Of a stretch of DNA of 64,000 nucleotides, positions 5,529 through 62,696 are shown piece by piece. This DNA is from Brevundimonas naejangsanensis (GTDB lineage: Bacteria; Pseudomonadota; Alphaproteobacteria; Caulobacterales; Caulobacteraceae). Numbering within the stretch: the first letter of the stretch is position 1; every line of letters starts with the position of its first letter. A program made the translations under genes and the position numbers. The notes under the pieces were generated by a model. That model was not told the origin of the DNA. It did no database searches and saw nothing but the letters and a program-made list of their open reading frames with translations. The stretch spans positions 731,501-795,500 of the forward strand of contig NZ_CP032707.1 in assembly GCF_003627995.1 (NCBI RefSeq), written 5' to 3'.

Positions 5529-5674
5529 CCTTCTCCCCTTGTGGGAGAAGGTGGCCGAGCGCAGCGAGGTCGGATGAGGGGTTGCGCGCCATAACCCGCC
5601 TCTCACGATCCGCTGAGGAGAAACCCCTCATCCGTCAGGCTTCGCCTGCCACCTTCTCCCACAAGGGGAGAAGG
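5529..5674. repeat. Intergenic palindromic repeat element 1 (CCTTCTCCCC family)
   Basis: Terminal hairpin arms CCTTCTCCCCTTGTGGGAG and CTCCCACAAGGGGAGAAGG are inverted copies of each other. Inside them lie the inverted segments GGATGAGGGGT and ACCCCTCATCC and short GCAGCGAG/CTTCGC blocks. The element lies between convergent genes and ends four bases before the coq7 stop codon. The same family recurs at 45793-45961. Confidence 0.9.
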
Positions 5675-5677
5675 GTT

Positions 5678-6268
5678 TTAGATCCGCTCGCTGATCTTGA
5701 TGGCGGCCTTGCAGCCGGCCTTGATGACGCTGCTCAGCAGGCGATAGGCCGGGGCCTCGCGGCTGCCGTGGGCGACGGCGTGGTCGTGGTGGGCCAGCTC
5801 CTCCTCGCGGAACCGGGTCAGTTCGGCGGCCAGTTCGGGGTCGCGCTCGCGGATTTCCTCGATCTGGTCGGCGTAGTGCTGCTCGATGACGCTCTCGACC
5901 GCCTCGGTGCAGGCGTGGGCGGCCTTTTCCGAGATCAGGGCGGTGCCGGCGCCCAGCGCCGTGGCGGCCAGCTTCCACAGCGGGATCATGGCCGTGGGGC
6001 GCACGCGGTTCTCGGTCAGCAGGGCCTCGAAGCGGGCCAGGTGGACGGCCTCGTGGCCCTCCATCTCGGTCAGGTCGGCGGCGATGGCGTCCTTGCCCTT
6101 GCGGCCTTCCAGCACGGCGCGCTGGGCGCGGTAGATGTGGACGGCGGCGAACTCGCCCGCGTGGTCGACGCGCAGCATCTCGGCCAGACGCGCCCTGTCC
6201 TGGCCCGGACCGGGGCGCGGCAGGGGGATGCGGCGGGCGTCGGCGACGGATTCGGCGGCTTCGGTCAT
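5678..6268 (-). CDS. coq7: Demethoxyubiquinone hydroxylase, Coq7 family
   Basis: This di-iron monooxygenase hydroxylates 3-demethoxyubiquinol, the step before the last methylation of ubiquinone synthesis, at the inner membrane. The 196-residue protein shows the ferritin-like ligand pattern: DHAGEFAAVHIY, EMEGHEAVHL, the ESVIEQHY helix and EEELAHHDHAV. Coq7 replaces flavin-type UbiF in many alphaproteobacteria. It is followed on the opposite side by repeat element 1, and the DsbB-like gene lies 9 bases upstream on the same strand. UbiE and UbiB of the same pathway lie at 55.7-57.9 kb. Confidence 0.95.
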   Translation of the reverse strand: MTEAAESVADARRIPLPRPGPGQDRARLAEMLRVDHAGEFAAVHIYRAQRAVLEGRKGKDAIAADLTEMEGHEAVHLARFEALLTENRVRPTAMIPLWKLAATALGAGTALISEKAAHACTEAVESVIEQHYADQIEEIRERDPELAAELTRFREEELAHHDHAVAHGSREAPAYRLLSSVIKAGCKAAIKISERI

Positions 6269-6277
6269 GGCATTCCC

Positions 6278-6829
6278 TTAGCTCCTGGGCGCGCGGGCGT
6301 CCTTGGGACGTTTCGCCGCCAGCAGGCTGAACACCGCCAGCGCCAGGGAGATGACAAGGTTCCATCCGGCCATCGACAGACCGGCGAAGCTCCAGGGAAC
6401 GTCGCCGCAGGAGACGAAGCCCGTGCTGCCGCCCGTGCCCTCGGCCAGGGCCGTCAGCAACGACAGGTCGATGGCGGTCGTCGGCGCGGCGGCGCAGGTG
6501 GCCGGCAGGGCCCACCACTTCAGCTCGCCCCCGGCGTGATAGCCCGCCGTGACGGCTCCGGTCAGGAAGACGACGGCCAGCAGGAAGGAGGCGATGCGCG
6601 GCGTGCCGCGGCTGGCGCGGCTGAACACGGCCCAGAAGGTGGCGGCCCCGGCGATGGCCACGGCGGCCCAATAGACCTCGCGCTGGCGCAGGCACAGGTT
6701 GCACGGCGCCAGGCCCGCGAACCGCTCGAAGGCGTGAGCCGCCCCCAGCATGGCCAGGGAGGCGGCCAGGGCGAAGGCCGTCCACCAGCGGGTCAGCAAT
6801 TTGTAAAGCGCGCTCATCCGGCCCCTCAT
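6278..6829 (-). CDS. DsbB-like disulfide bond formation protein
   Basis: This inner-membrane protein reoxidises a periplasmic DsbA-type thiol oxidase and passes electrons to quinone. It has four hydrophobic segments. The first loop has the PCNLCLRQR redox pair, and a second cysteine pair lies in the loop ATCAA ... SCGD, as in DsbB. The open frame begins at 6829, but MSALYKLL at 6817 is an equally plausible start. It lies just upstream of coq7 on the same strand with 9 bases between, so the two are probably one transcript. Confidence 0.85.
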   Translation of the reverse strand: MRGRMSALYKLLTRWWTAFALAASLAMLGAAHAFERFAGLAPCNLCLRQREVYWAAVAIAGAATFWAVFSRASRGTPRIASFLLAVVFLTGAVTAGYHAGGELKWWALPATCAAAPTTAIDLSLLTALAEGTGGSTGFVSCGDVPWSFAGLSMAGWNLVISLALAVFSLLAAKRPKDARAPRS

Positions 6830-6853
6830 AAACCGGGCTGCGTCCGGCGTCGA

Positions 6854-7435
6854 TCAGTGTCCGATAAGCTTGACCATAAAGAAGGCGCCGACCAGCACCA
6901 CCAGGAAAAGCACGGTGAACAGGGCCAACCGCTTCTCCACGATCGCCAGCATCGGCGGCCCCCAGCGCCGCAGCACGAAGGCCACCAGGAAGAAGCGGGC
7001 GCCGCGCGTCAGGACGCACAGAGCGATGAACAGCGCCAGATTGAACTGGAAGATGCCCGAGGCGATGGTGACCAGCTTGAACGGGATCGGAGTCAGTCCC
7101 TTGATCAGGATCACCCAGGCCCCGTGCTGCTGGAACAGGGCCTTGGACGTCTCGAAGGTGTCGGCCTTGCCCAGGAAGGCCAGGATCGACAGGCCGACCG
7201 GCTCCAGGAAGTAGCCGATGGCGTAGCCCAGCAGGCCGCCCAGCACCGAGGCCACGGTGCAGACCATGGCGTAGAAATAGGCGCGGTCCGGCCGGGCCAG
7301 GACCATGGGCGCCAGCATGACGTCCGGCGGAATGGGGAAGACCGAGCTTTCGGCGAAGGCGACCACGGCCAGGGACCGGGTGGCGTGGCGGTGGCGGGCC
7401 AGGGAGAAGACCCAGTCGTACAGCTTGCGAAGCAT
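6854..7435 (-). CDS. DedA/YqaA-family membrane protein
   Basis: This 193-residue inner-membrane protein belongs to the SNARE-associated/DedA superfamily, of the short YqaA type. The family signature appears as FAESSVFPIPPDVML near the N-terminus and KGLTPIPFKLVTIASG in the middle, and hydrophobic helices fill the rest. Relatives are thought to act in lipid-carrier translocation or membrane homeostasis. The specific substrate is not known. It is divergent from hpd across about 210 bp and lies upstream of the dsbB-like and coq7 genes. Confidence 0.85.
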   Translation of the reverse strand: MLRKLYDWVFSLARHRHATRSLAVVAFAESSVFPIPPDVMLAPMVLARPDRAYFYAMVCTVASVLGGLLGYAIGYFLEPVGLSILAFLGKADTFETSKALFQQHGAWVILIKGLTPIPFKLVTIASGIFQFNLALFIALCVLTRGARFFLVAFVLRRWGPPMLAIVEKRLALFTVLFLVVLVGAFFMVKLIGH

Positions 7436-7646
7436 TCAGGCGTCCCGATCGAGGCCCCCGCCTCTGATGCCGCCCCGATAGCAGCCCGCGCGGAGGGGCG
7501 CGAGGGGCTGCGACACCGGAACGTGTGCCGCTTCGGCGACGGCCCGCCTTGCGCGCCACGGGGGACGGCCATTAGGTTCCGCCTCAATCAGCGGCCCGCC
7601 CGGCAAGGCGACGGGCCGCGCATAAGACAATGAGAGGAGACGCGTC

Positions 7647-8735
7647 ATGCAGGACGCCGCCGCCAAGCTCGACCAGGAAAACCCCCTCGGCGTCGACGGC
7701 TTCGAGTTCGTCGAATTCACCGGCCCCGAGCCGGAAGCGATGATTTCGCGCCTGGAGCTGATGGGCTTCACCCAGACCCATGTGAACCCGGCCAACGGCG
7801 TGGTGCGCCTGAAGCAGGGCGACATCACCATGCTGGTCCACCGCGCCCCGAAGGGCCAGGCGGCGGACTTCGCCAGGGACCACGGCCCCTCGGCCAACGG
7901 CATGGCCTTCCGCGTCGCCGACGCCAAGGCCGCCTATGAGGGCGCGCTGGCGCGCGGCGCCCGCGCCGCCGAGGGCGTGCACGGCGGGGCGCTGGCGGGC
8001 GACTACCCCTATGTGCTGCAGGGCATCGGCGGCTCGCTGCTGTATGTCGTCGACCAGTACGGCGAGCACGGCTCCCTCTATGACGCCTGGGACGAGATCG
8101 AGGGCTGGGAAGAGGCCGAGCGCAAGAACAGCGTCGGCCTGCAGGTGCTCGACCACCTGACCCACAATGTGCGTCGCGGCGAGATGCGCACCTGGTCGGG
8201 CTTCTACCACTCGGTGTTCAACTTCGAGGAGCAGAAGTATTTCGATATCAAGGGCAAGGCGACGGGCCTGTTCTCTCAGGCCATGATCGCGCCCGACCGC
8301 GCCATCCGCATCCCGCTGAACGAAAGCCAGGACGAGAATTCCCAGATCGAGGAATTCATCCGTCGCTACAACGGCGAAGGCATCCAGCACATCGCCCTGA
8401 CGACCGACAACATCTATGAGACGGTCGAGACGATGAAGGCCCGCGGCGTGGCCTTCCAGGACACGATCGACACCTATTTCGAACTGATCGACAAGCGCCT
8501 GCCGGGCCACGGCGAGGACGTGGAGCGGATGAAGAAGAACCGCATCCTGATCGACGGTTCGGACGAGGAAGGCCTGCTGCTGCAGATCTTCACCCAGGAC
8601 ACCTTCGGCCCGATCTTCTTCGAGATCATCCAGCGCAAGGGCAACGAGGGCTTCGGCAACGGCAATTTCCAGGCCCTGTTCGACTCCATCGAGCTGGACC
8701 AGATCCGTCGCGGCGTCATCAAGGTCGACGCCTGA
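7647..8735 (+). CDS. hpd: 4-hydroxyphenylpyruvate dioxygenase
   Basis: This non-heme iron enzyme converts 4-hydroxyphenylpyruvate to homogentisate in tyrosine catabolism. The 362-residue length is normal. The iron ligands can be placed at His170 in DHLTHNV, His248 in IQHIAL and Glu326 in FFEIIQRKG. GAGGAG about 9 bases before the ATG is a good ribosome site. fahA, the last enzyme of the pathway, is 3 kb downstream on the same strand, and phhB, which serves phenylalanine hydroxylase, is at 57.98 kb. Homogentisate dioxygenase is absent from this window. Confidence 0.97.
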   Translation: MQDAAAKLDQENPLGVDGFEFVEFTGPEPEAMISRLELMGFTQTHVNPANGVVRLKQGDITMLVHRAPKGQAADFARDHGPSANGMAFRVADAKAAYEGALARGARAAEGVHGGALAGDYPYVLQGIGGSLLYVVDQYGEHGSLYDAWDEIEGWEEAERKNSVGLQVLDHLTHNVRRGEMRTWSGFYHSVFNFEEQKYFDIKGKATGLFSQAMIAPDRAIRIPLNESQDENSQIEEFIRRYNGEGIQHIALTTDNIYETVETMKARGVAFQDTIDTYFELIDKRLPGHGEDVERMKKNRILIDGSDEEGLLLQIFTQDTFGPIFFEIIQRKGNEGFGNGNFQALFDSIELDQIRRGVIKVDA

Positions 8736-8921
8736 ATGAAGTTGCGACCGCCGCACTGGCTGCCCTGGCTCGGCCCGCTTCTGGCCGCCGGGGCCGGGGC
8801 CCTCGCGGGCGAATACTGGCTGGGCGGGGGCTTCTGGATGGTCCTGGCCGCCGCCCTCGTCTGCGGTTTCGCCCCCATCCTGGCCCACCGCCTCTGGCGA
8901 CGCCTGCACCATAAGCGCTAG
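8736..8921 (+). CDS. Small membrane protein downstream of hpd
   Basis: The ATG follows the hpd stop codon with no gap (TGAATG), which implies translation coupled to hpd. The 61-residue product has two hydrophobic stretches, [17 protein letters not shown] and [17 protein letters not shown], and a basic tail [11 protein letters not shown]. It looks like a two-helix membrane protein. I do not recognise a family, and the role is unknown. Confidence 0.6.
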
Positions 8922-8928
8922 CCTTGCT

Positions 8929-9049
8929 TTCCTCCCCATGGAATGGGGAGGGGGACCACGAAGTGGTGGAGGGGTTGAGCGGCTTGAAACAGCCCCTCCG
9001 TCTCGTCCGCTGCGCGGCCGATCCACCTCCCCATGAAATGGGGAGGAGA
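8929..9049. repeat. Intergenic palindromic repeat element 2 (CCTCCCCA family)
   Basis: Each end is a hairpin, CCTCCCCATGGAATGGGGAGG on the left and its near-twin with a GAA loop on the right. Inside lie GGGACCACGAAGTGGTGGAG, a variable centre, then CCCCTCCGTCTCGTC. The same family is at 47578 and 53880. The right hairpin lies directly before the start region of the asparaginase-like gene. Confidence 0.9.
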
Positions 9050-9067
9050 ATGAATGGGGAGCTTGAA

Positions 9068-12803: not shown

Positions 12804-12888
12804 GCCGGTGTGGTGAAATTGGTAGACGCGCCGGACTCAAAATCCGGTTCCGCAAGGAGTGTCGGTTCGAGTCCGACCACCGGCACCA
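12804..12888 (+). tRNA. tRNA-Leu (anticodon CAA)
   Basis: A full class II cloverleaf is visible. The acceptor stem GCCGGTG pairs with CACCGGC, the anticodon loop is CTCAAAA with anticodon CAA, there is a long variable arm, the T arm contains GGTTCGAGTCC, and the 3' CCA is encoded. It decodes UUG. Confidence 0.97.
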
Positions 12889-16435: not shown

Positions 16436-16552
16436 CCCGCTCGTCCCGGCGGAGGCCGGGACCCAGTAAGAACGCAGAGCAGCGCCCCATCCATTTGACC
16501 GGAGCCGTTTGAAGCCAAAGCGCCGGATCCCGGACTCCGCCGGGATGAGCGG
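16436..16552. repeat. Intergenic palindromic repeat element 3 (CCCGCTCGTCCCGG family)
   Basis: The left arm CGCTCGTCCCGGCGGAGGCC matches the inverted right arm CTCCGCCGGGATGAGCG with few mismatches. Each arm also contains its own smaller hairpin. It lies between two codirectional transporter genes, directly after emrA. Confidence 0.75.
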
Positions 16553-23243: not shown

Positions 23244-23282
23244 AAAAACCCCTCGGGACCGGCGTCCCGAGGGGTTTTTTCT
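23244..23282 (+). terminator. Strong intrinsic terminator after the NDUFA9-like gene
   Basis: AAAAACCCCTCGGGAC pairs with GTCCCGAGGGGTTTTTT around a CGGC loop. The A and T runs on the two sides could allow action in both directions. Confidence 0.92.
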
Positions 23283-23302: not shown

Positions 23303-23409
23303 CCGTCATCCTCGGGCCTGACCCGAGGATCCAGAGACGACGCGCGCTCCATTTTTCCGATGTCGAAGGGCGGACAACTCGATCCTCGGGTCAAGCCCGA
23401 GGATGACGG
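23303..23409. repeat. Intergenic palindromic repeat element 4 (CGTCATCCTCGGG family)
   Basis: CCGTCATCCTCGGGCCTGAC and the inverted GTCAAGCCCGAGGATGACGG bound the element. Each arm can fold on itself (CCTCGGG with CCCGAGG). It lies between convergent genes. Element 6 at 40689 belongs to the same family. Confidence 0.9.
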
Positions 23410-23430: not shown

Positions 23431-23459
23431 CTTTCCTCCCCACGGCGTGGGGAGGAAAG
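23431..23459 (-). terminator. Hairpin at the uppP 3' end
   Basis: CTTTCCTCCCCAC and GTGGGGAGGAAAG form a 13-bp stem with a three-base loop, one base from the uppP stop codon. The sequence matches a single terminal hairpin of the CCTCCCCA repeat family. It probably terminates uppP, or is a solo repeat arm doing so. Confidence 0.6.
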
Positions 23460-26171: not shown

Positions 26172-27314
26172 ATGGCGGCCGATCCCCGCATCTTCATCCG
26201 ACAGCGCGCCGCCGAACTGGGCTTCGGCGTGTGCCGCTTCGCCTCGGCCAGCGAACCGTGGAGCGCGGGCGAGAAGCTGGCGCACTTCGTCGAGGCGGAC
26301 CGTCACGGCGACATGGGCTGGATGGAGACGACGCTGGAGCGCCGCGCCCACCCGACCGCCATGTGGGACGGGGCCAGGACCGCCATCGTCCTGGGCATGA
26401 ATTACGGCCCGGATGAGGACCCACGGCCCGAACTGGACCAGCCCTCGGCGGGCTATATCTCCGTCTATGCGCGCGGCGACGACTATCACGAGGTCATCAA
26501 GGGCCGGCTGAAGATCCTGGCCGGCCAGATCGCCGCCCGGCTGGGCCAGGAGGTGAAGGTCTTCGTCGACACCGCCCCCCTGATGGAGAAGCCCCTGGCG
26601 CAGCGTGCAGGGCTAGGCTGGCAGGGCAAGCACACCAATCTGCTGAGCCGCACCCACGGCAGCTGGCTGTTCCTCGGCGTCATCCTGACCGCCGCCGAGA
26701 TCGAGGCGGACGAAGCCGAGAGCGAGCATTGCGGCCGCTGCACCGCCTGTCTGGACGCCTGTCCGACGAACGCCTTTCCGGCGCCCTTCCAGATCGACGC
26801 CCGGCGCTGCCTGTCCTACCTGACCATCGAATACGCAGGCGCCTGGCCGCGCGAGTTCCGCGTCGCGACGGGCAACCGCATCTACGGCTGCGACGACTGC
26901 CTGGCGGCGTGCCCGTGGAACAAGTTCGCGCAAGCGGCGTCGGAGGCCCGGCTACAGGCCCGCGAGGCGCTGAAGTCGCCGCCTCTGGCCGAGCTGCTGG
27001 CGCTGGACGACCCGGCCTTCCGCACCCTGTTCGCCAAGAGCCCGGTCAAGCGCATCGGGCGGGATCGGTTCCTGCGCAATGTGCTCTATGCGGCGGGCAA
27101 TTCGGGCGAGACGGGGCTGGTCGGTGCGGTCGAGCGATTGCTGGATGATGCGGCGTCCATGGTGCGTGGGGCGGCGACTTGGGCGCTCGGGCGGCTGGCG
27201 CCGGAGCGGTTCGAGGCGGCGCGCGAAGCCCGGCTGGCGGGGGAAGCGGACGAGGCGGTACGCGAAGAGTGGCGCGCGACACCTCTCCCTCCCCGTCCCG
27301 GGGAGGGTGGCTGA
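26172..27314 (+). CDS. queG: Epoxyqueuosine reductase QueG
   Basis: QueG carries out the last step of queuosine synthesis in tRNA, reducing epoxyqueuosine with cobalamin and two 4Fe-4S clusters. The 380-residue protein has a DUF1730 N-terminal domain, then cluster cysteines at residues 187, 190, 193 and 197 (CGRCTACLDACPT) and 240, 243 and 247 (CDDCLAACPW). A C-terminal HEAT-like repeat follows. The last eleven residues, TPLPPRPGEGG, are encoded by repeat element 5, which also supplies the stop codon. The cobalamin requirement fits the presence of cobT. Confidence 0.95.
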   Translation: MAADPRIFIRQRAAELGFGVCRFASASEPWSAGEKLAHFVEADRHGDMGWMETTLERRAHPTAMWDGARTAIVLGMNYGPDEDPRPELDQPSAGYISVYARGDDYHEVIKGRLKILAGQIAARLGQEVKVFVDTAPLMEKPLAQRAGLGWQGKHTNLLSRTHGSWLFLGVILTAAEIEADEAESEHCGRCTACLDACPTNAFPAPFQIDARRCLSYLTIEYAGAWPREFRVATGNRIYGCDDCLAACPWNKFAQAASEARLQAREALKSPPLAELLALDDPAFRTLFAKSPVKRIGRDRFLRNVLYAAGNSGETGLVGAVERLLDDAASMVRGAATWALGRLAPERFEAAREARLAGEADEAVREEWRATPLPPRPGEGG

Positions 27315-27440
27315 GCCGTCAGGCCGAAGCCGGGTAGGGGCGGCCAGGCTATTCAGGCGCCGCGCCCAGCATCACCTAGCCCTCCCCACCCGGTCTCCAC
27401 TGCGCGTCGACCACCCTCCCCGGGACGGGGAGGGAGAGGC
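27282..27440. repeat. Intergenic palindromic repeat element 5 (CCTCTCCCTCCCCG family), overlapping the queG 3' end
   Basis: CCTCTCCCTCCCCGTCCCGG at the left is the inverted copy of CCGGGACGGGGAGGGAGAGG at the right. Inside are GGGTGGCTGA, AGGCCGAAGCCGGGT and a complementary CCCTCCCCACCCGGT. The left 33 bases are coding sequence of queG. Element 10 at 50921 is a close relative. Confidence 0.92.
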
Positions 27441-36898: not shown

Positions 36899-36973
<75 letters not shown>

Positions 36974-40053: not shown

Positions 40054-40671
40054 TCAGGCGGGACGCCGCGCTCGCAGCGCCTGGATGATGGTGCCGTCGT
40101 CCAGCCAGTCCAGTTCGCCGCCGACGGGAACGCCGCGCGCCAGGGAGGTGACCTGCACCCCCGCCGCCGACAGGCGCTCGGCCAGGTAGTGGGCCGTGGT
40201 CTGGCCGTCGACGGTGGCGGGCAGGGCCAGGACGACCTCCCTCGCCTCGCCGTCGCCCATCTCGCCGCCTTTGACGCGGCCGATCAGTTCGGCGATGCGC
40301 AGTTGTTCGGGTCCGACGCCGTCCAGGGCGGACAGCAGGCCGCCCAGCACGTGATACTTGCCGCGAAAGGCGCCCGAACGCTCCATGGCCCACAGGGCGC
40401 CGGCCTCCTCAACGACGCAGATCAGGGCGTTGTCGCGGCTCGGGTCCGAGCAGACCGAGCAGGGGTCGCGCGTGTCGGGCGCGCCGCAGACCGAGCAGTT
40501 GACGACCTTGTCCGCCGTCTCGGCCAGGGAGGCCGCCAGCGGGACGAGCAGTTGCTCGCGCCGCTTCAGCAGGGCCAGGGCCGCACGCCGGGCCGAGCGC
40601 GGGCCCATGCCTGGCAGCTTGGCCAGCAGGCTGATGAGCCGTTCGATTTCCGGCCCGGCGGAGGCGGCCAT
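40054..40671 (-). CDS. recR: Recombination protein RecR
   Basis: RecR works with RecF and RecO in loading RecA at gaps. From the ATG at 40671 it has 205 residues. It has the helix-hairpin-helix [20 protein letters not shown], the zinc finger with [16 protein letters not shown], and a Toprim domain ([38 protein letters not shown]). The open frame reaches 40725, but those extra residues, [11 protein letters not shown], are repeat element 6 translated and should not be included. Confidence 0.96.
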
Positions 40672-40688
40672 CAGTCTCTCCTCTCGCC

Positions 40689-40791
40689 CGTCATCCTCGG
40701 GCTTGTCCCGAGGATCCAGAAACACGACGGGTCGCTGGTCATCATCAAAGGTCGGCGTATCTGGATGCTCGGCACAGGGCCGAGCATGACG
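40689..40791. repeat. Intergenic palindromic repeat element 6 (CGTCATCCTCGGG family)
   Basis: CGTCATCCTCGGG at the left faces the imperfect inverted arm CCGAGCATGACG at the right. Inner GATCCAG and CTGGAT match too. Each arm forms its own hairpin. It lies between ybaB and recR, both on the minus strand, and partly overlaps the open frame ahead of recR. Confidence 0.85.
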
Positions 40792-40812
40792 ACAGAAGCT
40801 TGACCGCGGCCA

Positions 40813-41142
40813 TCAGAAGAGTTTCGGCATTCCCGGGATGTTCATCCCGGCCATGGGCCCGGCGGCCTCGCGCATCAGGGCGTTGTTGATCTCGTCCAGC
40901 TTGCGTTTGGCGTCGGCGTGGGCGGCGACGATCAGGTCGGCCAGGATCTCGCCCTCGCCGGGGGTCATCAGGCTGTCGTCGATCTTCACCGCGGTGATCT
41001 CGCCGGGGCCCTTCAGGGCGATGGAGACGAGGCCCCCGCCCGAGGTGCCCTCGGCGGTGGATTCGGCCATTTTCGCCTGGGCGTCCTGCAGCTTCTGCTG
41101 CATCGCCTGGGCCTGCTGCATCAGGGCGTTGAGGTCTTTCAT
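40813..41142 (-). CDS. ybaB: YbaB/EbfC-family nucleoid-associated protein
   Basis: This small DNA-binding homodimer has 109 residues. It shows the usual start MKDLNALMQQAQAMQQKLQD, the core VSIALKGPGEITAVKIDDSL and the tail LIVAAHADAKRKLDEINNAL with a methionine-rich end. It keeps the common dnaX-ybaB-recR order, but rutE and repeat element 7 now lie between it and dnaX, and element 6 separates it from recR. Confidence 0.95.
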   Translation of the reverse strand: MKDLNALMQQAQAMQQKLQDAQAKMAESTAEGTSGGGLVSIALKGPGEITAVKIDDSLMTPGEGEILADLIVAAHADAKRKLDEINNALMREAAGPMAGMNIPGMPKLF

Positions 41143-41918: not shown

Positions 41919-41927
41919 GCTCAAAGA

Positions 41928-42025
41928 CGTCATCCCGGACGGCGCGCAGCGCCGATCCGGGACCGCGGCAAGCCCGGCGTTCTGGGCGGTCCCGGCTCTC
42001 CGCTGACGCTGCGGCCGGGATGACG
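41928..42025. repeat. Intergenic palindromic repeat element 7 (CGTCATCCCGG family)
   Basis: CGTCATCCCGG at the left pairs with CCGGGATGACG at the right. Inner arms are GATCCGGGACC and GGTCCCGGCTC. GCGCAGCGC and CTGACGCTGCGG blocks lie between. It fills the gap between convergent rutE and dnaX. Confidence 0.88.
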
Positions 42026-42030
42026 CGGAC

Positions 42031-44679: not shown

Positions 44680-44708
44680 AACCAAGCGACGTCGACGATG
44701 TAGGGAAA

Positions 44709-44800
44709 GGGTGGAGACCGCGACCCGAAGGGGAATTCGTTGTGGCTGCTGCCTTCCGGCCCTGACCAGGTTGGCGAAGCCTTCGCCCGCGATCTCCGAG
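44709..44800 (-). ncRNA. ffs: Signal recognition particle RNA, small bacterial type
   Basis: On the minus strand the universal helix-8 core is present: GGTCAGGGCCGG, the GGAA tetraloop, then GGCAGCAGCC. The flanking arms GGAGATCGCG and CGCGGTCTCC pair to close the rod. Length is about 90-95 nt, so it is the 4.5S type without an Alu domain. Ends are approximate. The gene keeps the ffs-dnaX order of many bacteria. Confidence 0.93.
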
Positions 44801-44871: not shown

Positions 44872-45789
44872 ATGCCCTATCGTCACGCCTTCTCCGGCAA
44901 TCCGCTCGACCGCTCCGGCGACCTCCGTAACGACGCCGCCTGGCTGGCCGAGCAGGAAGCCAACCCCGAAGCCCTGGCCATGATCCTGTGGGAAGGCCGT
45001 CCGCTGATCGAAACCCATGAGGGGGCCGAGCGGCTGGTCTGGCTGTCTCTGGCCCACGCACGTGACTTGGCGCGCGACCGCGACGTCTTCCTGGGGCTGT
45101 GGAAGGGCGCGCCGGTCTTCGCCGCCGAGTTCGAGGGCTCCATCGACCCCACCAGCGGCCCCGCCGGGGGCCTGGGCCGCTTCGTCGAGATGCGCGAGGC
45201 GGCGGTCGTCCTGCCCGAGGCCGACGCTGGCATCGCCGCGACGGCCAAGAGCCTGTTCGACTGGCGCCGCCGCCACGGCTTCTGCGCCGCCTGCGGCCAG
45301 GCGACGGATCAGGCTTCGGGCGGCTGGAAGCGCGTCTGCCCGGCCTGCGGGACCGAACATTTCCCGCGCGTCGACCCCGTCGTCATCATGCTGCCGGTCT
45401 ATAAGGGCGGGACCGAGCCGCGCTGCCTGCTGGGCCGTCAGGCGGCCTGGCCCGCCGGGCGGATGTCGGCCCTGGCCGGCTTCATGGAGCCGGGCGAATC
45501 GATCGAGGAGGCCTGCGCCCGCGAGGTGATGGAGGAGGCCGGCCTGACGGTCTGCGACGTGCGCTACCACTCCAGCCAGCCCTGGCCCTTCCCCGGTCAG
45601 CTGATGATCGGCCTGATCGCCGAGGTCACGACCGACGAGGCCGCCCCCGACCAGACCGAACTGGAGGCCGTCGCCTGGCTGACCCGGGCCGAGGCCCGCG
45701 CCGTGCTGGACGAGACCCACCCCACGATCCACGCGCCCGCGCCCTACGCCATCGCGCGGCGGCTGCTGGAGAGCTGGGCGGCGGAATAG
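44872..45789 (+). CDS. nudC: NAD(+) diphosphatase / NADH pyrophosphatase NudC
   Basis: This Nudix hydrolase cleaves NAD(H), and relatives remove NAD caps from RNA. The 305-residue protein has a zinc ribbon with CAACGQ and CPACGTEHFPR, the Nudix box GFMEPGESIEEACAREVMEE and, downstream, the NADH-specific motif SQPWPFPGQLM (usually SQPWPFPxS). The start codon overlaps nothing and is divergent from ffs. Repeat element 8 follows immediately after the stop codon. Confidence 0.95.
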   Translation: MPYRHAFSGNPLDRSGDLRNDAAWLAEQEANPEALAMILWEGRPLIETHEGAERLVWLSLAHARDLARDRDVFLGLWKGAPVFAAEFEGSIDPTSGPAGGLGRFVEMREAAVVLPEADAGIAATAKSLFDWRRRHGFCAACGQATDQASGGWKRVCPACGTEHFPRVDPVVIMLPVYKGGTEPRCLLGRQAAWPAGRMSALAGFMEPGESIEEACAREVMEEAGLTVCDVRYHSSQPWPFPGQLMIGLIAEVTTDEAAPDQTELEAVAWLTRAEARAVLDETHPTIHAPAPYAIARRLLESWAAE

Positions 45790-45792
45790 GAC

Positions 45793-45961
45793 CCTTCTCC
45801 CCTTGTGGGAGAAGGTGGCTCGCGCAGCGAGACGGATGAGGGGTGACTGCGTCGCGGCGTGAAGATTCGCCTGCAACGTCGCCCCATCATTGCCAAGCGC
45901 GACGCCGGCACCCCTCATCCGAGCGCCTTCGGCGCCCACCTTCTCCCACAAGGGGAGAAGG
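45793..45961. repeat. Intergenic palindromic repeat element 8 (CCTTCTCCCC family)
   Basis: CCTTCTCCCCTTGTGGGAG and the inverted CTCCCACAAGGGGAGAAGG bound it, exactly as in element 1. Inside are GGATGAGGGGTG and CACCCCTCATCC, then a variable centre. It lies between convergent nudC and kdsB. Confidence 0.92.
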
Positions 45962-45968
45962 AAGAAGG

Positions 45969-46691
45969 TCACGCCAGCGCCCGCGCCGCCTCCAGGTCCG
46001 CCGGGTTGTCGACCGACAGCGGCGCCTCGTCGATCACCGAAGCCCAGATTTGCAGGCCCATCTCCAGGGCGCGCAACTGCTCCAGCTTCTCGCGCTTCTC
46101 CAGCGGCGACGGCGGGGCGGCGCAGAAGCGGGTCAGGGCCTGACGGCGATAGCCGTAGATGCCGACGTGGCGCCAAACAGGGCCGTCGCCGTAGAGCGTC
46201 GAACGGGTGAAGTAGAGGGCGCGGCCGCTGGTCCCGTCCTCCGGCAGGGCCAACACCGCCTTGACCACGTCGGGATTGGCGCGATCCGACACATCCGCCT
46301 CGGCCGCGACCAGGGTGGCGATGTCGCAGGCTGATTCGCCCGCCAGCAGCGCGGCGCAGGCCTTCGCCAGGTCCGGCGAGGCGAAGGGCATGTCGCCCTG
46401 GATGTTGATGACCACCTCGTGGGCGCCGTCAGGATCGACCGCCTGGGCCGCCGCCAGGATGCGGTCCGAGCCGCTCGGCAGGGCGGGATCGGTCAGCACG
46501 GCCTCGCCCCCCGCCGCCTGCACCGCCGCGACGATCTCCGGATCGCCCGCCGCCACGGCGACGCGGAAGCCCGACGCCATGGCCTGCTCCCAGGCGCGCA
46601 CGATCATCGGCTTGCCGCCGATGTCGGCCAGGGGCTTGCCCGGCAGACGCGTGGCCGCCATGCGAGCCGGTATCATTATCAGCGGATTCAT
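45969..46691 (-). CDS. kdsB: 3-deoxy-manno-octulosonate cytidylyltransferase KdsB
   Basis: KdsB activates Kdo as CMP-Kdo for lipopolysaccharide core assembly. From the ATG at 46691 it has 240 residues, and the extended frame upstream is not needed. Family motifs are MIPARMAATRLPGKPLADIG, DPALPSGSDRILAAAQ, the metal-binding NIQGDMPFA and WRHVGIYGYRRQAL. It is divergent from cycM. Confidence 0.95.
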   Translation of the reverse strand: MNPLIMIPARMAATRLPGKPLADIGGKPMIVRAWEQAMASGFRVAVAAGDPEIVAAVQAAGGEAVLTDPALPSGSDRILAAAQAVDPDGAHEVVINIQGDMPFASPDLAKACAALLAGESACDIATLVAAEADVSDRANPDVVKAVLALPEDGTSGRALYFTRSTLYGDGPVWRHVGIYGYRRQALTRFCAAPPSPLEKREKLEQLRALEMGLQIWASVIDEAPLSVDNPADLEAARALA

Positions 46692-47530: not shown

Positions 47531-47562
47531 AAAGGCGGCCCTCGGGCCGCCTTTCTTCGTTT
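47531..47562 (+). terminator. Terminator of cycM
   Basis: AAAGGCGGCC and GGCCGCCTTT form a 10-bp stem with a short loop followed by CTTCGTTT. It lies 26 bases after the cycM stop and ahead of repeat element 9. Confidence 0.85.
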
Positions 47563-47577
47563 CAGCTGCTCGTTTTT

Positions 47578-47728
47578 CCTCCCCATTTCATGGGGAGGGG
47601 GACCACGAAGTGGTGGAGGGGCTACCTAGGCGGAACGAAGTGGTGGAGAGGCCACGTCAGCGGAGCCAAGCCGCCCCTCCGTCTCGTCGGCTATCGCCGC
47701 CGATCCACCTCCCCATGGAATGGGGAGG
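47578..47728. repeat. Intergenic palindromic repeat element 9 (CCTCCCCA family) with an internal duplication
   Basis: The left end is CCTCCCCATTTCATGGGGAG and the right end CCTCCCCATGGAATGGGGAG, both self-complementary hairpins. Next to the left arm is GGGACCACGAAGTGGTGGAG, and the block CGAAGTGGTGGAG is repeated about 30 bases later, which makes the element longer than elements 2 and 11. It ends three bases before the stop codon of the C40 gene. Confidence 0.92.
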
Positions 47729-47731
47729 AAA

Positions 47732-50907: not shown

Positions 50908-50920
50908 GACGCGCGCCACG

Positions 50921-51073
50921 CCTCTCCCTCCCCGTCCCGGGGAGGGTGGCTGAGGCCGTCAGGCCGAAGCCGGGTGGGGGCGGCGAGGCTATTCGAGCGC
51001 GACGTCCTGCATCACCTCGCCCTCCCCACCCGGTCGCTGCGCGACCACCCTCCCCGGGACGGGGAGGGAGAGG
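50921..51073. repeat. Intergenic palindromic repeat element 10 (CCTCTCCCTCCCCG family)
   Basis: CCTCTCCCTCCCCGTCCCGG and the inverted CCGGGACGGGGAGGGAGAGG are identical to the ends of element 5. The interior also shares AGGCCGAAGCCGGGT and CCCTCCCCACCCGGT, with the central variable part differing. It lies between codirectional genes. Confidence 0.93.
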
Positions 51074-51119
51074 CGCGGCATCCCTTCACCTTCCACCCGC
51101 AAACGCCTATCTTCCTCCC

Positions 51120-53868: not shown

Positions 53869-53879
53869 CTATGCTTTCT

Positions 53880-54001
53880 CCTCCCCACAGCGTGGGGAGG
53901 GGGACCACGAAGTGGTGGAGGGGCTTTGCGACGGCGGAACCAAGCAGCCCCTCCGTCTCGGCGGCTACGCCGCCGATCCACCTCCCCACACAGTGGGGAG
54001 G
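53880..54001. repeat. Intergenic palindromic repeat element 11 (CCTCCCCA family)
   Basis: The left hairpin CCTCCCCACAGCGTGGGGAG and the right hairpin CCTCCCCACACAGTGGGGAG enclose GGGACCACGAAGTGGTGGAG, a GACGGCGGAACC centre and CCCCTCCGTCTCGGCGGC. The loops differ between copies while the stems are kept, so the hairpins appear to be selected. Confidence 0.92.
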
Positions 54002-54097
54002 AGAAGGCCGCGTCGGGTCGAGAAGGCGCAGCCTTCTGACCGCGGCCCGGCATCAAGCGGCCTTCTCCCCTTGCTCTCCACGGGCCATAAGCCTGTC

Positions 54098-59062: not shown

Positions 59063-59072
59063 GGCGCGCCTG

Positions 59073-59226
59073 CTCCCCCTTCCCCCTCGATGGGGAAGGG
59101 CCGGGGATGGGGGTGGACGCTCGACGTCGCCGAGCAAGGGCATGAGGCGCGTCGGCGTCTCTCCCGCCACATCGGAAACCCGCGGCCCTCACCCCCACCC
59201 AACCCTCCCCCATCGAGGGGGAGGGC
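59073..59226. repeat. Intergenic palindromic repeat element 12 (TCCCCCTCGATGGGG family)
   Basis: The left arm CCCCTTCCCCCTCGATGGGG and the right arm CCCCCATCGAGGGGGAGGG are imperfect inverted copies, each also self-paired. Inside lie GGATGGGGGTG and CACCCCCACCC. It follows the SDR gene and is next to the terminator of the convergent amidohydrolase. Confidence 0.85.
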
Positions 59227-59240
59227 TTCAGCCCCAAACG

Positions 59241-59273
59241 AAAAAGGGCGCCGCGGTCTCCCGCGGCGCCCTC
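59241..59273 (-). terminator. Terminator of the amidohydrolase pair
   Basis: AGGGCGCCGCGG and CCGCGGCGCCCT form a 12-bp stem around TCTC. On the minus strand the hairpin is followed by TTTTT. It lies 20 bases after the stop codon of the first amidohydrolase. Confidence 0.92.
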
Positions 59274-59293
59274 TGTCGTCAGGCCGTGAAGCC

Positions 59294-60637
59294 TCAGTTG
59301 CCGTAGGCGGGCGGCATGGCCCCTTCGCCGCCGGTGCGGTAGCGGTCGCGCAGCAGCAGGTTGCGCGCCTGCAGCGGCTGCTCCACCCCGTCGATCAGCA
59401 CGGCCGAGGGCTGGCTGAGCGGCTCCAGCGGGTCGCCCGACCAGACCACGACGTCGCCCGCCGCGCCCGGCTTCAATTCGCCGAACTGGCCGTCGAAGCC
59501 GAAGATGCGGGCCGGGTTGACCGTGATCGCCTGGATGGCCGCCGCGAACGGCAGGCCGTGCGAGACGGCGTTGCCGGCGTTGTAGCGCAGGTCGCGCGCA
59601 CGGTGGGCGCCGCCCTCGTTGCCCTTGATGGCGATGACCACGCCGGCCGCGTTCAGGGCCGCCGCGTTCTGCATCCGCGCCGCCCGCATCTCGAAGTTCG
59701 AGGGCAGGTTGGTCAGCGGGTGCAGCAGGACCGGAACCTTGGCGGCGGCGATCTCGTCCGCCACCAGCCAGCCTTCGGCCGCGCCGTCGAGGATGACCTT
59801 GACGCCTTCCTCGCGCGCCAGGCGCAGCACCTGCCGGATGTCGGCCGCCCGGTTGACGGTGACGATCAGCGGCATGCGGCCCTCGGCTACGGGGATCAGG
59901 GCCTCCAGGTCGGCGCGCGACAGGGACAGGTCGCGCAGCGCCGCCCGGTCGTAGGCCGCCTTGTTGCGGGCGTAGAGGCGCGTCTCGGCCAGGGTCTCCT
60001 TGAACAGGACGAACTCGGCGCCGCGCGCGCCGCCCGCCACCGTTGCCCCGGCCTCGCCGAACGGGGCCGTCATGGCCACGCGCGGCTTCACCAGGATGTC
60101 CGAACCGCCCAGCTTGATGACCGCCGCCTGGCCCGCGAACAGGCCCGGCGTCTGATAGCCGCCCGCGCCGGCGCCGGCGAAGTCGGAATCGTCATGGCTG
60201 TGGCCGCCGCCCGAGCCGCCGTGCTGCGGCGTGACGACGGCGCGGGTGACGCCGCCCAGGCGCGCCACCGGCAGGGTGAAGGACCAGGGGTCCAGCCCAT
60301 AGGACAGGTCGAAGGCCGCCGTCAGGGTGTTGGCGCGGTTGGCCAGGTCGTTGGTGCCGCGCACCGAGCCGACCTCGGTGCCGGCCAGGCCCGAATCCAC
60401 GGCCACGAAGCCGGGAGCCACGACCTTGCCGCGTGCGTCGATGACGCGCAGGCCGGCCGGCGCCGCGCCGGTTCCAACGGAGACGACCTTGCCGCCGCGG
60501 ATGACCACGGTGCCGTTCTCGATCACCGAGGTTCCGGTCAGCACCCGGCCGCCGGTGATGGCGACGTCCTGGGCCAGGGCCGGACCGGCCAGGGCGATGG
60601 CCGCGACAGCGCCCGCGAGGAGAGTGTTGATACGCAT
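59294..60637 (-). CDS. Exported amidohydrolase-family protein lacking the HxH metal motif
   Basis: This 447-residue protein has a signal peptide ending LAGPALAQ and the amidohydrolase frame (ITGGRVLTGTSVIENGTVVI, then ARGKVVAPGFVAVDSGLAGT). Where the superfamily has HxH after the strand, it reads VDSGL, so two usual metal ligands are missing. A His-rich insert, QHGGSGGGHSHDD, lies further on. The C-terminal NPARIFGFDGQFGELKPGAA fold is intact. It starts three bases after its partner's stop codon. It may be a non-catalytic partner of the upstream enzyme. Confidence 0.88.
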   Translation of the reverse strand: MRINTLLAGAVAAIALAGPALAQDVAITGGRVLTGTSVIENGTVVIRGGKVVSVGTGAAPAGLRVIDARGKVVAPGFVAVDSGLAGTEVGSVRGTNDLANRANTLTAAFDLSYGLDPWSFTLPVARLGGVTRAVVTPQHGGSGGGHSHDDSDFAGAGAGGYQTPGLFAGQAAVIKLGGSDILVKPRVAMTAPFGEAGATVAGGARGAEFVLFKETLAETRLYARNKAAYDRAALRDLSLSRADLEALIPVAEGRMPLIVTVNRAADIRQVLRLAREEGVKVILDGAAEGWLVADEIAAAKVPVLLHPLTNLPSNFEMRAARMQNAAALNAAGVVIAIKGNEGGAHRARDLRYNAGNAVSHGLPFAAAIQAITVNPARIFGFDGQFGELKPGAAGDVVVWSGDPLEPLSQPSAVLIDGVEQPLQARNLLLRDRYRTGGEGAMPPAYGN

Positions 60638-60640
60638 GGT

Positions 60641-62137
60641 TCAGCGAGCTCCCTGGGCGACGCCGACGGCGGCCTGGCCGAAGCCGGGCTGGCCCAGTTC
60701 AAAGTCGGATACGGGCTGGAAGGCGGGGTTGGCGCGGTCATAGGCCAAGCCGCCGTCGATGAAGACCTGATCGGCGCGGGCGTAGATCGAGAAGGGATCG
60801 GCGCTCCAGATCACCACGTCGGCGCGCTTGCCGTTCTCCAGCGAGCCCGTCTCCTTGTCGATGCCGATGGACTTGGCGGCGTTCAGCGTGATCCAGCTGA
60901 TGGCGTGCTCTTCGGCGATGTTCATCCCGGCGCGGCGACCGGCCGACAGGGCGGCGGCGGCTTCCTGGTTGAGGCGCTGGATCAGTTCGGCGTCGTCCGA
61001 GTGGATGACGGCGCACGAGCCCTCGGGCGCGTCGGTCAGGGCGGCGTTTTCCTCGATGCCGTCCAGGGCTTCCATCTTGAAGCCCCACCAGCCGGTCCAC
61101 ATGGCGGCGCAGACGCCTTCGCGGGCCAGCAGCGGCGCGACCTTGTAAGCCTCGACCGCGTGGTGGAAGGTGGTGATCTTGTAGCCGAACTCCTTGGCCA
61201 CATCGAGCATCACCGCCATCTCGTCGGCGCGGTAGCAGTGGTTCTGGATCAGGACCGAGCCGTCCAGAACGCCCGCCAGGGTCTCCAGCTGCAGGTTGCG
61301 GGTCGGGGGCGTGCCCTGGCCCGTCTCGCGCCACTTGTCCCACTTGTCCTTGTAGTCGCGCGCGGCGATGAAGGCGGCGCGATAGCCGGCGACATTGCCC
61401 ATGCCGGTGGCCGGCGACTGGTTGCGCGAGCCATAGACGCGCGACGGGTTCTCGCCGCAGGCCATCTTCAGGCCGTAGGGGGCGTTCGGGAACTTCATCC
61501 CCTGCATGGTGACCGACGGCACGTTGCGCAGGGTCACGCCGCGCCCGCCGAACAGGTTGGCCGAGCCGGGCAGGATCTGCATGGTCGTCACCCCGCCCGC
61601 GCGGGCGGTGTTGAAGCCGGGATCCTGCGGCCAGATCGAGTGCTCGGCCCAGACCTGGGCCGTGTTCGGGTTGGTGGCTTCGTTGCCGTCGCTCATCCCC
61701 TGCACGCCGGGCGAAGGATAGACGCCCAGGTGGCTGTGGATGTCGATGATGCCCGGGGTGACGTAGCGGCCGCGCGCGTCCACCACCTGGTGGCCCGCCG
61801 GGACCGGGGTGTCGGCCCCGCCGACAGCGACGATGCGGCCGTCGGTGACGACGACGACGCCGTTCTGGATCTTCTGGCCCGCGCCGGTCAGCACCGTGGC
61901 GCCGACGATGGCCATGTCCTGGCGCGGCAGGCCGCGATAGGTCGAGGGATAGGGATCCTGATTGGCCCAGCCGTCCAGGCCCGGGGCCATGGTCCGGTCC
62001 TTCGAGGCCGGAGCCGCCGAAGCCGTCTGGGTCTTCGGCGCGGCGTCGCCGGTCGTGGCGCAGGCCGACAGGCTGAGCGCGCCGAGCGCGCAGGTGAGAA
62101 CGGCGAGGCTGGGACCCCGCAGGCGACTGAACAACAT
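60641..62137 (-). CDS. Amidohydrolase-family lipoprotein with intact metal site
   Basis: This 498-residue protein has a lipoprotein signal ending LSAC, then an intact HxH motif in TPGIIDIHSHLGVYPSPGVQ. Further ligand candidates are His in KITTFHHAVEAYKVAPLL and Asp in CAVIHSDDAELIQRLNQEA. The C-terminus GSLENGKRADVVIWSADPFS matches imidazolonepropionase-like amidohydrolases. It is co-transcribed with the HxH-less protein (three-base gap), so the pair probably works together outside the cytoplasm. Confidence 0.9.
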   Translation of the reverse strand: MLFSRLRGPSLAVLTCALGALSLSACATTGDAAPKTQTASAAPASKDRTMAPGLDGWANQDPYPSTYRGLPRQDMAIVGATVLTGAGQKIQNGVVVVTDGRIVAVGGADTPVPAGHQVVDARGRYVTPGIIDIHSHLGVYPSPGVQGMSDGNEATNPNTAQVWAEHSIWPQDPGFNTARAGGVTTMQILPGSANLFGGRGVTLRNVPSVTMQGMKFPNAPYGLKMACGENPSRVYGSRNQSPATGMGNVAGYRAAFIAARDYKDKWDKWRETGQGTPPTRNLQLETLAGVLDGSVLIQNHCYRADEMAVMLDVAKEFGYKITTFHHAVEAYKVAPLLAREGVCAAMWTGWWGFKMEALDGIEENAALTDAPEGSCAVIHSDDAELIQRLNQEAAAALSAGRRAGMNIAEEHAISWITLNAAKSIGIDKETGSLENGKRADVVIWSADPFSIYARADQVFIDGGLAYDRANPAFQPVSDFELGQPGFGQAAVGVAQGAR

Positions 62138-62222
62138 GGGCGAGCCCCCTCGCGCCCGCGAACGGCGGGCAGATACGGGCCGTATAGAAACCTTAGTTTC
62201 CCCTAGCGTAAAGCTCTAAAAC

Positions 62223-62504
62223 TCAGCCCACGGACAGGCGGGCCTTCGCCTCGTCTTCGGCGAGGCCCTGGACCTCGATCATCTTGAGCCGCGACTGGCC
62301 GCCGCGCGCCAGGGACACCGCCCGCTTGGGCACGCCCAGGGCCTTGGCCAGGACGGCGATCAGGGCGGCGTTGGCCTCGCCCTCGACCGGCTGGGCGCGC
62401 ACGCGGACCTTGAGCACCGGGCGGCCGTCGGGGTCGACGTCCCAGCCGTCGATGCGGTCGGCGGCGGCGCGGGGGGTCAGCTTGACGGGGATGCGGGCGG
62501 TCAT
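62223..62504 (-). CDS. DUF167 (YggU) family protein
   Basis: From the ATG at 62504 the product has 93 residues: RIPVKLTPRAAADRIDGWDV, VRVRAQPVEGEANAALIAVL and a closing SLARGGQSRLKMIEVQGLAE. All are typical of the small YggU family of unknown function. The longer frame upstream runs through repeat element 13 and is not coding. It lies downstream of etfBA on the same strand. Confidence 0.92.
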   Translation of the reverse strand: MTARIPVKLTPRAAADRIDGWDVDPDGRPVLKVRVRAQPVEGEANAALIAVLAKALGVPKRAVSLARGGQSRLKMIEVQGLAEDEAKARLSVG

Positions 62505-62545
62505 GGGAGCGTGTTTGGCCCATGGACGCGAGAGCGCCAAATCTT

Positions 62546-62696
62546 CGTCATTCTCCGGCAAGCCGCGCAGCGGCGCAGACCGGGGAACCCAGCGGCGCCC
62601 GTCAGGGCGAAAAGCCCACGCGTTGCGCTTGCCATGAAGATCGCCTTCGGCGCCGCTGGGTCCCCCGGTCTCGCTCCGCTCGCCGGAGGATGACGG
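62546..62696. repeat. Intergenic palindromic repeat element 13 (CGTCATTCTCCGG family)
   Basis: CGTCATTCTCCGG faces CCGGAGGATGACGG at the other end, with inner AGACCGGGGAACCCAGCGGC matching GCCGCTGGGTCCCCCGGTCT. The centre has paired GGCGAAAAGCC-type blocks. It lies between yggU and etfA, both on the minus strand. Confidence 0.88.

Follow-up and report, generated by a model that had tools for sequence, protein, structure and literature searches.

Palindromic intergenic repeats of several families lie mostly at gene 3' ends in Brevundimonas naejangsanensis

Introduction

Rhizobium intergenic mosaic elements (RIMEs; Osteras 1995) are reportedly intergenic, palindromic and mosaic. CGTC-REP dimers, carried by species including C. 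crescentus, have already been published as repeats with 3'-end placement and no dedicated transposase (Di Nocera 2013, PMC3733652). REPINs are inverted REP doublets that form a hairpin, with singlets regarded as doublet remnants (Bertels and Rainey 2011, PMC3116915). Caulobacter intergenic repeats (CIR; Chen and Shapiro 2003) are about 110 bp long and have two hairpin arms (PMC2229807, PMC10969869), and Br-REP1 and Br-REP2 of Bradyrhizobium are 3'-UTR palindromes, the former situated where the 3' UTRs of convergent genes overlap (PMC5082802). REP-like dimers are common, and for those that lack a tag or have CGTC the questions of interest are their mode of movement and whether 3' placement reflects function or refuge. 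Our search for literature joining Brevundimonas with repetitive extragenic palindromic intergenic repeats found none, and a further one on the arm letters and the RIME names gave no relevant title among the 25 papers listed; we do not claim that the families below are undescribed.

The window analysed here is a 64-kb stretch of the B. naejangsanensis genome. A palindromic element is present at 13/13 of the starts named in a sequence-only reading of this DNA, and independent gene calling returned the same tally of 7 convergent gaps, 6 codirectional gaps and none of the window's 10 divergent gaps (Table 1). The likeness to intergenic repeats of alphaproteobacterial type that had been proposed was borne out, and a strong 3' bias was seen in a wider sample.

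Table 1. Elements and neighbouring features in the window, with gap types from our own gene caller
Feature	Positions	Strand	Gap	Remarks
Family A element	5529..5674	.	convergent	arms 27 nt, 100% complementary; fold z -10.6 / -11.0
Family B element	8929..9048	.	codirectional	right end near next called start 9050
Family E element	16437..16552 (start 16436/16437)	.	codirectional	G069 and G070 without element
Family D (CGTC-tagged) dimer	23303..23409	.	convergent	
Family C element	27282..27439	.	convergent	left arm runs into last codons of called ORF 26172-27314
11-bp duplication, left copy	40664..40674	.		flank of 40689 insert
Family D (CGTC-tagged) dimer	40689..40791	.	codirectional	gap length -1 in five close relatives
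11-bp duplication, right copy	40806..40816	.		flank of 40689 insert; stop and next start codon both intact
CGTC-type element (D2), looser kin of family D	41928..42026	.	convergent	long structured loop; family B in same slot in G069, G043
Family A element	45793..45961	.	convergent	G069 has it too; interior inverted in L012; one hairpin left in G043, G070, G051
Terminator-like hairpin	47531..47557	.		kept in G069, G043, G070, G051, all without the 47575 element
Family B element	47575..47731 (start 47575-47578)	.	convergent	G069, G043, G070, G051 without element
Family C element	50915..51079 (start 50915-50921)	.	codirectional	
Family B element	53876..54005 (start 53876-53880)	.	codirectional	B element in opposite orientation in G070 and G051
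Family F element	59073..59222	.	convergent	same slot: D in G069, E in G070, collapsed E in G051, empty in G043
Terminator-like hairpin	59241..59274	.		5/5 species compared at slot
CGTC-type element (D3), looser kin of family D	62546..62696	.	codirectional	also G043; same slot: E in G069 and G070, collapsed E in G051, C in G088
Terminator-like hairpin	62716..62750	.		6/6 species compared at slot

Families and architecture

The 13 elements belong to at least six families, not one, and their units appear to be inverted (head-head) dimers with two terminal hairpins, two inner hairpins in several families, and a short variable centre. Nine folds covering 8/13 elements (5529 on both strands) gave z values of -5.1 to -11.0 against dinucleotide shuffles, and 0/200 shuffles matched the stability of the element in each of them. 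The half-unit of families A, B and C consists of an arm hairpin, a linker, an inner hairpin and a G-rich stem. Family D at 40689 reads CGTC-ATCCTCGGG-CTTGT-CCCGAGGAT-CCAG, and its exact pattern has 55 matches in this genome and is present in 92/121 genomes of the genus. Family E has a plan like that of D but a GCTC tag, and its other copies start with AT while the window copy at 16437 starts with GT. Families A, B, C, F and G lack the CGTC tag, and their arms open with C/T-rich stems, not AT. A lone B-type palindrome lies at 23435-23455, near the family D dimer at 23303. Searching the window against Rfam at gathering scores returned two tRNAs and the SRP RNA only.

The inner hairpins of family A covary, with 96.5% of cells paired (63.0% in shuffled data) and a covariation score of 0.763 against 0.149, as high a score being reached in 0/500 shuffles. 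Pairs changed on both sides do not stand out (4 vs 3.3 shuffled; 203/500), and further pair types stand out little (8 vs 5.7 shuffled; 19/500). Evidence for inner hairpins is uneven among the three families: in our own sample at least four inner stem pairs occur in 15/25 family A modules (shuffled 10%), in 6/7 left (3%) and 2/12 right (7%) modules of family B, and in 2/7 family C modules (11%).

Junction placement in the wider genome sample

Junction orientation was scored beyond the window in a sample of 848.5 kb (28% of the genome), where a scan with the family motifs located 76 full elements, 75 of them placed at a junction, corresponding by extrapolation to about 269 per genome. Full elements occupy 32/121 convergent, 37/545 codirectional and 5/123 divergent junctions, so that the strong 3' bias stands (convergent against divergent, odds ratio 8.5, Fisher p = 6e-7), whereas the strict 3'-end placement seen in the window does not extend to the sample, in which divergent copies exist. 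Family D follows with 6 convergent, 7 codirectional and 1 divergent full elements, and a divergent gap with a full C element is found in G088. Per kilobase of remaining gap the densities are 2.56 (convergent), 0.74 (codirectional) and 0.17 (divergent). Within codirectional gaps elements lie a median of 15 nt from the upstream stop and 77 nt from the next start, 28/38 being nearer the stop (Wilcoxon p = 0.017), and 27/32 convergent elements lie at most 30 bp from a stop. Placement is thus strongly biased to gene 3' ends and is densest between convergent genes. At the window elements 8929 and 62546 the start of the next gene is also nearby.

An earlier version of the motif scan gave 73 full elements, none inside a called gene, and 0 in shuffled sequence; its single hairpins numbered 88 (24 after shuffling), so that counts of single hairpins are partly chance. 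Scanning the same 848.5 kb for inverted-repeat structure only yielded 86 elements (7 in locally shuffled sequence), split into 27 convergent, 36 codirectional, 6 divergent, 15 in called genes and 2 at edges, and most of the 15 look like chance to judge by their letters. Across 78 loci of relatives (1.39 Mb) this structure-only scan was less sharp than in our own sample, with 28 elements at 276 convergent, 30 at 841 codirectional and 13 at 283 divergent junctions, 23 in genes, and 19 in shuffled sequence.

Turnover and copy number

Slot contents in each species were taken from the sequences themselves. Orthologous gaps show gains and losses of elements, one site carries them in both orientations, and collapse is seen between unchanged flanks, G069 having a full element and G051 a single hairpin. 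In five species the slot at 59063-59293 holds family F, family D, family E, a collapsed E and no element, respectively. Several relatives have overlapping stop codons or a short gap at such a junction, and the hairpin is absent. At the 45793 slot the centre of the element in G069 is 0.94 identical to that of the window in direct orientation, while that in L012, which has a run of N inside the element, is closer when inverted (0.84 vs 0.69 direct). At 53869-54097 the hairpins of the window, G069 and G043 show compensatory base-pair differences and, in G043, a single change that is not compensated; such pairs could equally point to a host function, and the opposite orientation found there may represent a second insertion, the flanks also being different.

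Counting junctions kept in at least five loci, with gaps below 40 bp scored empty and the window itself excluded, a full element or long inverted repeat occupies 20/85 species-slots at three convergent junctions (12 more with a single hairpin), 15/263 at eight codirectional junctions (7 single) and 1/121 at three divergent junctions (0 single). Among 75 pairs of close species, gaps changed by at least 70 bp in 70/231 convergent, 84/598 codirectional and 32/278 divergent comparisons, the last count possibly being inflated by start-codon errors of the gene caller.

The elements are numerous, their number varies by species, and near-copies occur at distant sites. Family A, counted by its exact arm pattern, has 109 arms in this genome and between 0 and 82 in each of the 120 further genomes of the genus, and family copy numbers vary many-fold among close species. 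Comparison of 20 family A copies with one another gives a likeness of 97.7% for the left arm and 57% for the centre (52% when shuffled); 16/190 pairs of centres are at least 70% alike (shuffled 0), including those of the far-apart copies L106 and L117.

Function and movement

We consider that the elements are probably non-autonomous palindromic repeats that occupy tolerated post-stop slots and are moved by an unassigned route. The 3' bias would then reflect tolerance of insertions behind stops, where they leave promoters and reading frames untouched, and not a required role, and in related species repeats would settle repeatedly in the same gaps behind genes. Upkeep of pairing could come from selection on the element, from copying between arms, or from host benefit.

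The sequence-only reading had gone from 3' placement to a role in termination or mRNA protection, a step that is not supported, since one junction may have an element in one species and lack it in a close relative, unrelated families swap in one slot, and canonical terminator-like hairpins adjoin the elements and are not replaced by them. The corresponding alternative, in which host selection keeps the elements as bidirectional terminators of transcription or as protectors of mRNA 3' ends and the families are interchangeable hairpin parts, would suit their position tens of bases from stops, the strong folds, the covarying inner hairpins of family A, and the filling of slots by unrelated families with single hairpins remaining behind. 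We nevertheless regard it as unlikely, both because relatives with overlapping stops or a short gap lack the element and because T-run terminator-like hairpins persist outside the element at 13/32 convergent junctions with a full element (8/19 with a single hairpin and 13/70 with neither, gap length being uncontrolled). A hairpin followed by TTTTTT lies just upstream of the 23303 dimer (hairpin end at 23264-23280). As separate hairpins stand beside the elements, these do not stand in for terminators, and substitution for a canonical intrinsic terminator was rejected on the same count. An RNA role is possible given the covariation in family A.

As to how tolerated post-stop repeats would move, no mobilising gene was found. 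Inverted arms, one mark of a MITE of a DDE-type insertion sequence, are present, and a target-site duplication of fixed length, another such mark, was not found, three insertions having 11 bp (40689), about 5 bp (L102 vs L159) and no long duplication (L007 vs L008). No Y1/RAYT match (PF01797) was obtained in this genome, and only 4/121 genomes of the genus have one. If unrelated families independently fill the same slot with no Y1 found, and pairing is then kept by compensatory change, hairpin modules would be placed behind stops by a structure-guided, transposase-independent or trans-acting route, and the cell would gain from any hairpin there, whatever its sequence; this stronger proposal we hold to be doubtful. 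Rather less probable still is that the elements are REPINs of the classical kind and owe their movement to a RAYT, the gene for which has been lost or lies beyond the Pfam model searched. An inverted REP doublet that forms a hairpin matches the design of REPINs, whose singlets are described as doublet remnants (PMC3116915), but the Y1-positive genomes are poor in family A arms (G018 3, G073 8, G093 14, G106 6), the genome with most of them being the present one, and the GTAG tag was not read in the arms. In the sequence examined around the four Y1 genes of the genus, no full element of these families was present; L187 carries a lone D2 motif, and the palindromes in L186, which is cut short where its contig stops, are of a different kind. 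That the elements are chromosome organisers or CcrM methylation marks, as proposed for the CIR repeats, is highly improbable, for although their abundance would fit, the copy number of a family varies many-fold from one close species to another and GANTC is not enriched. It occurs in 8/76 elements, and its 11 sites over 10,350 bp compare with 1007 over the 848,500-bp sample and 205 over other gaps totalling 83,924 bp.

The question of function or refuge is testable by strain comparison and simple deletions, because among close relatives the same sites have gained or lost elements, carry them in opposite orientation or collapsed, or have exchanged one family for another.

Comparison with known systems

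The published CGTC-REP dimers (PMC3733652) share with family D the CGTC tag, a 9-bp stem (8-9) starting with AT, a 5-nt loop (4-5), a CCA-type tail, outside tags in head-head arrangement, mostly convergent or unidirectional gaps near 3' ends, and the lack of a dedicated transposase. On these features family D fits the published head-head dimers, and family E, similar in plan but tagged GCTC, may do so too. Families A, B, C, F and G differ in the absent CGTC tag, and A, B and C also in their half-unit; these three appear to follow another plan, as do F and G less clearly.

REPINs (PMC3116915) share the inverted palindrome doublet forming a hairpin and singlets as decay products, and differ in that here no RAYT was found in the genome and the GTAG tag is absent. 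CIR repeats, from the same bacterial order, are likewise intergenic with two hairpin arms (PMC2229807, PMC10969869), but GANTC (CcrM) sites are not enriched here, and Br-REP1 and Br-REP2 share the 3'-UTR palindromes with different sequences (PMC5082802). The family A half-unit also occurs on replicons of Phyllobacterium, Neorhizobium and Methylobacterium, where its letters were read, and on Methylosinus in a BLAST listing. With its half-unit present in Rhizobiales too, and being intergenic, palindromic and mosaic, family A may resemble the RIMEs.

Placement of the palindromic elements

The genome under study (G000) is a single contig of 3,002,429 bp, of which the window spans G000:C1:731501-795500, and its DnaX is 93-95% identical to the Brevundimonas naejangsanensis, B. 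guildfordensis and B. diminuta-record proteins. All 13 palindromic elements that the sequence-only reading had placed in the window were confirmed, with inverted arms that each also fold alone, and nine folds spanning 8 of the 13 were more stable than dinucleotide shuffles, with z values between -5.1 and -11.0. Their junctions were likewise as described, seven convergent and six codirectional. The accompanying claim that they always occur at gene 3' ends held within the window, where none of the 10 divergent gaps has an element, but not in an 848.5-kb sample (the window and 40 spaced stretches, L089 trimmed), in which full elements occupied 32 of 121 junctions between convergent genes, 37 of 545 between codirectional genes and 5 of 123 between divergent genes; the junction labels come from gene calls by our own script and may be wrong in some cases.

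The family scan of this sample yielded 76 full elements, 75 assignable to a junction; its first version had returned 73 full elements and 88 single hairpins, where shuffled sequence gave 0 and 24, and a structure-only scan found 86 elements compared with 7 after shuffling. Densities of full elements per kb of remaining gap were 2.56 for convergent, 0.74 for codirectional and 0.17 for divergent junctions. Convergent elements lay within 30 bp of a stop in 27 of 32 cases, while those in codirectional gaps had median distances of 15 nt from the upstream stop and 77 nt from the next start, 28 of 38 being nearer the stop; in four codirectional cases the distance to a stop exceeds 250 bp, perhaps because the gene just upstream was missed. 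The gene-end pattern of these palindromic elements is genuine and pronounced; a pattern of this general form has already been published for related repeats. A structure-only scan of 78 loci from relatives was less sharp than that of the own-genome sample, with 28 elements (276 convergent junctions), 30 (841 codirectional) and 13 (283 divergent), 23 within genes and 19 in shuffled sequence.

Families and conservation of pairing

The 13 elements represent several families rather than a single one. By eye, families A, B and C are built alike, from arm hairpin, short linker, inner block, G-rich stem and centre, after which the same parts are repeated inverted; the inner block is foldable in family A and part of family B, and families G and F resemble this plan less clearly. 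A second plan, also recognised by eye, is common to D and E and comprises an ATCC-type stem, a tag on the outside and a CCA-type tail. The left arm of the family C element at 27282 contains the end of the called ORF 26172-27314, the last codons of which may therefore derive from insertion.

Sequence plans of the element families and positions of RNA genes in the window
Feature	Position	Strand	Sequence plan
Family A			CCTTCTCCC-5 nt-GGGAGAAGG-TGG
Family B			CCTCCCCA-loop-TGGGGAGG
Family C			CTCCCTCCCC-loop-GGGGAGGG
Family D			CGTCATCCTCGGG-loop
Family E			CGCTCATCCCGGC-loop
Family F			CCCCCTCGATGGGG
Family G	outside window		CCCTCTCCC-loop-GGGAGAGGG
Small SRP RNA gene	44707-44800	minus	
tRNA gene	12804-12885		
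tRNA gene	36902-36973		

Family A inner modules occurred in 25 different forms among 41 occurrences, and the 17 of 15 nt were analysed, the 8 of other lengths being set aside. Pair cells were kept at 96.5% (63.0% in shuffles) and the covariation score was 0.763 (0.149 in shuffles), with 0 of 500 shuffles as high on either measure; two-sided pair changes in these modules were unremarkable (4 versus 3.3). Family C inner blocks gave no clear hairpins on the measure used for family A. At slot 53869-54097 (a slot being a gap between two genes compared among species), the orthologues in the congeneric genomes G069 and G043, read against the window, show compensatory pair differences both in the inner hairpin and in one of the arm hairpins, and G043 has one uncompensated change.

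Among the matches listed for exact family A arms, both arms carried the same loop allele in 25 of 34 cases (12.5 expected; 0 of 10,000 shuffles), and this agreement suggests that arms remain inverted copies via common origin, arm-to-arm copying or selection on the long fold. Across 20 family A copies, likeness was 97.7% for the left arm and 57% for the centre (52% after shuffling); 16 of the 190 pairs of centres were at least 70% alike, compared with 0 after shuffling. Exact arms number 109 in this genome, the highest among 121 genomes; the congeners G069, G051, G070 and G043 have 80, 26, 25 and 14, and such arms are absent from 12 of the 121. Several family A elements also lie about 0.4 to 1.5 kb apart in clusters, including G000:C1:1543631-1545115.

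Turnover at orthologous junctions

The content of orthologous junctions varies among close species. Slot 59063-59293 holds F in the window, D in G069, E in G070 and a collapsed E (reduced to one hairpin) in G051, and is empty in G043; a terminator-like hairpin (59241-59274) is present in 5 of 5 species compared. Slot 62505-62774 holds D3, a looser relative of family D, in the window and G043, E in G069 and G070, C in G088, and in G051 an E reduced to one hairpin with flanks matching G069; here too a terminator-like hairpin (62716-62750) is found in 6 of 6 species. Slot 41919-42030 carries D2, likewise D-related, in the window and no element in G088; G069 and G043 have B there, and B-type hairpins that are single or worn occur in G070 and G051. 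Such collapse has left lone hairpins at several slots.

Among 39 relatives, slot 45790-45968 (between orthologues of 44872-45789 and 45969-46691) contains A, B, C, GTCATTCC-type and other palindromes or single hairpins (automatic count: 12 full or inverted-repeat, 7 single), and in some the stop codons overlap with no element. Seven loci (L033, L034, L035, L038, L039, L053, L058) have a non-palindromic stretch of about 200 bp there, with common words GGGTCTTTGACATCGT and, in most, TTGCAC/GTGCAA, which may be a small RNA or small gene. L019, L022, L026 and L024 have short tandem repeats of GGGATTA or GGGATGA type near a stop codon, with an AGGAATT-type array in L024. L040, L042 and L075 carry a further palindromic family, TTCATCACAACGAA or similar. 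Another locus, L007, comes from a record titled Bordetella MAG that is probably mislabelled or contaminated, its DnaX being 95% identical to this Brevundimonas DnaX.

Full elements or long inverted repeats, and single hairpins, occurred in 20 and 12 of 85 species-slots at three convergent junctions, 15 and 7 of 263 at eight codirectional junctions, and 1 and 0 of 121 at three divergent junctions. Between this genome and relatives, gap length differed by at least 60 bp in 17 of 33 comparisons at convergent junctions, 26 of 159 at codirectional junctions and 1 of 37 at divergent ones, the sole divergent case being a full C element in G088; changes of at least 70 bp across 75 close species pairs numbered 70 of 231, 84 of 598 and 32 of 278, respectively, and these comparisons are non-independent as species recur among them.

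The 40689 junction has a gap of -1 in the five close relatives; of 58 loci, 30 were listed, and 25 of these have a gap of -1 to 1. The element here is flanked on either side by an 11-bp duplication that preserves the overlapping stop and start codons. Of two other insertion cases, one has a duplication of about 5 bp and the other no long duplication. In L012, which has an N run inside the 45793 element, the interior of this element is inverted (centre identity 0.84 inverted versus 0.69 direct); in G069 it is direct (0.94). At site 53876 the B element is reversed in G070 and G051, where a second insertion is possible because the flanks differ.

What the species comparison adds is that, within one slot, families replace each other and elements turn up in opposite orientation or collapsed, with neighbouring terminator-like hairpins retained. 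It is conceivable that hosts share a benefit from having a hairpin of some kind downstream of the stop codon. We prefer to see the elements as small non-autonomous repeats that would occupy tolerated slots, a reading we hold to be probable, having lowered our confidence slightly because the relatives' scan was less sharp and the flanks differ at slot 53869-54097.

Relation to known repeats

A search for PF01797 (Y1/RAYT) gave no match in this genome and matches in 4 of 121 genus genomes, and the stretches around those four genes held no full element of these families. Near the Y1-type hit in G018, perfect inverted repeats GAAAGTAGGGACACGCACCACTTTCC (L186, 2615-2732) perhaps belong to a different repeat family served by a transposase of its own. 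The GANTC (CcrM) site linked with Caulobacter intergenic repeats (CIR) is not enriched in the elements, being present in 8 of 76.

Of 289 genomes sampled across the class, 5 have exact family A arms; two of the five lie outside the genus, and most copies read there are half-units. The half-unit was read on Phyllobacterium, Neorhizobium and Methylobacterium replicons and appears in the match listing for Methylosinus; this distribution would fit Rhizobium intergenic mosaic elements (RIME). PMC3733652 reports no transposase link for CGTC-REP dimers and describes convergent and unidirectional placement, convergent dimers lying mostly <20 bp from 3' ends in two diagrammed cases. Family D carries the marks published there for head-head CGTC-REP dimers.
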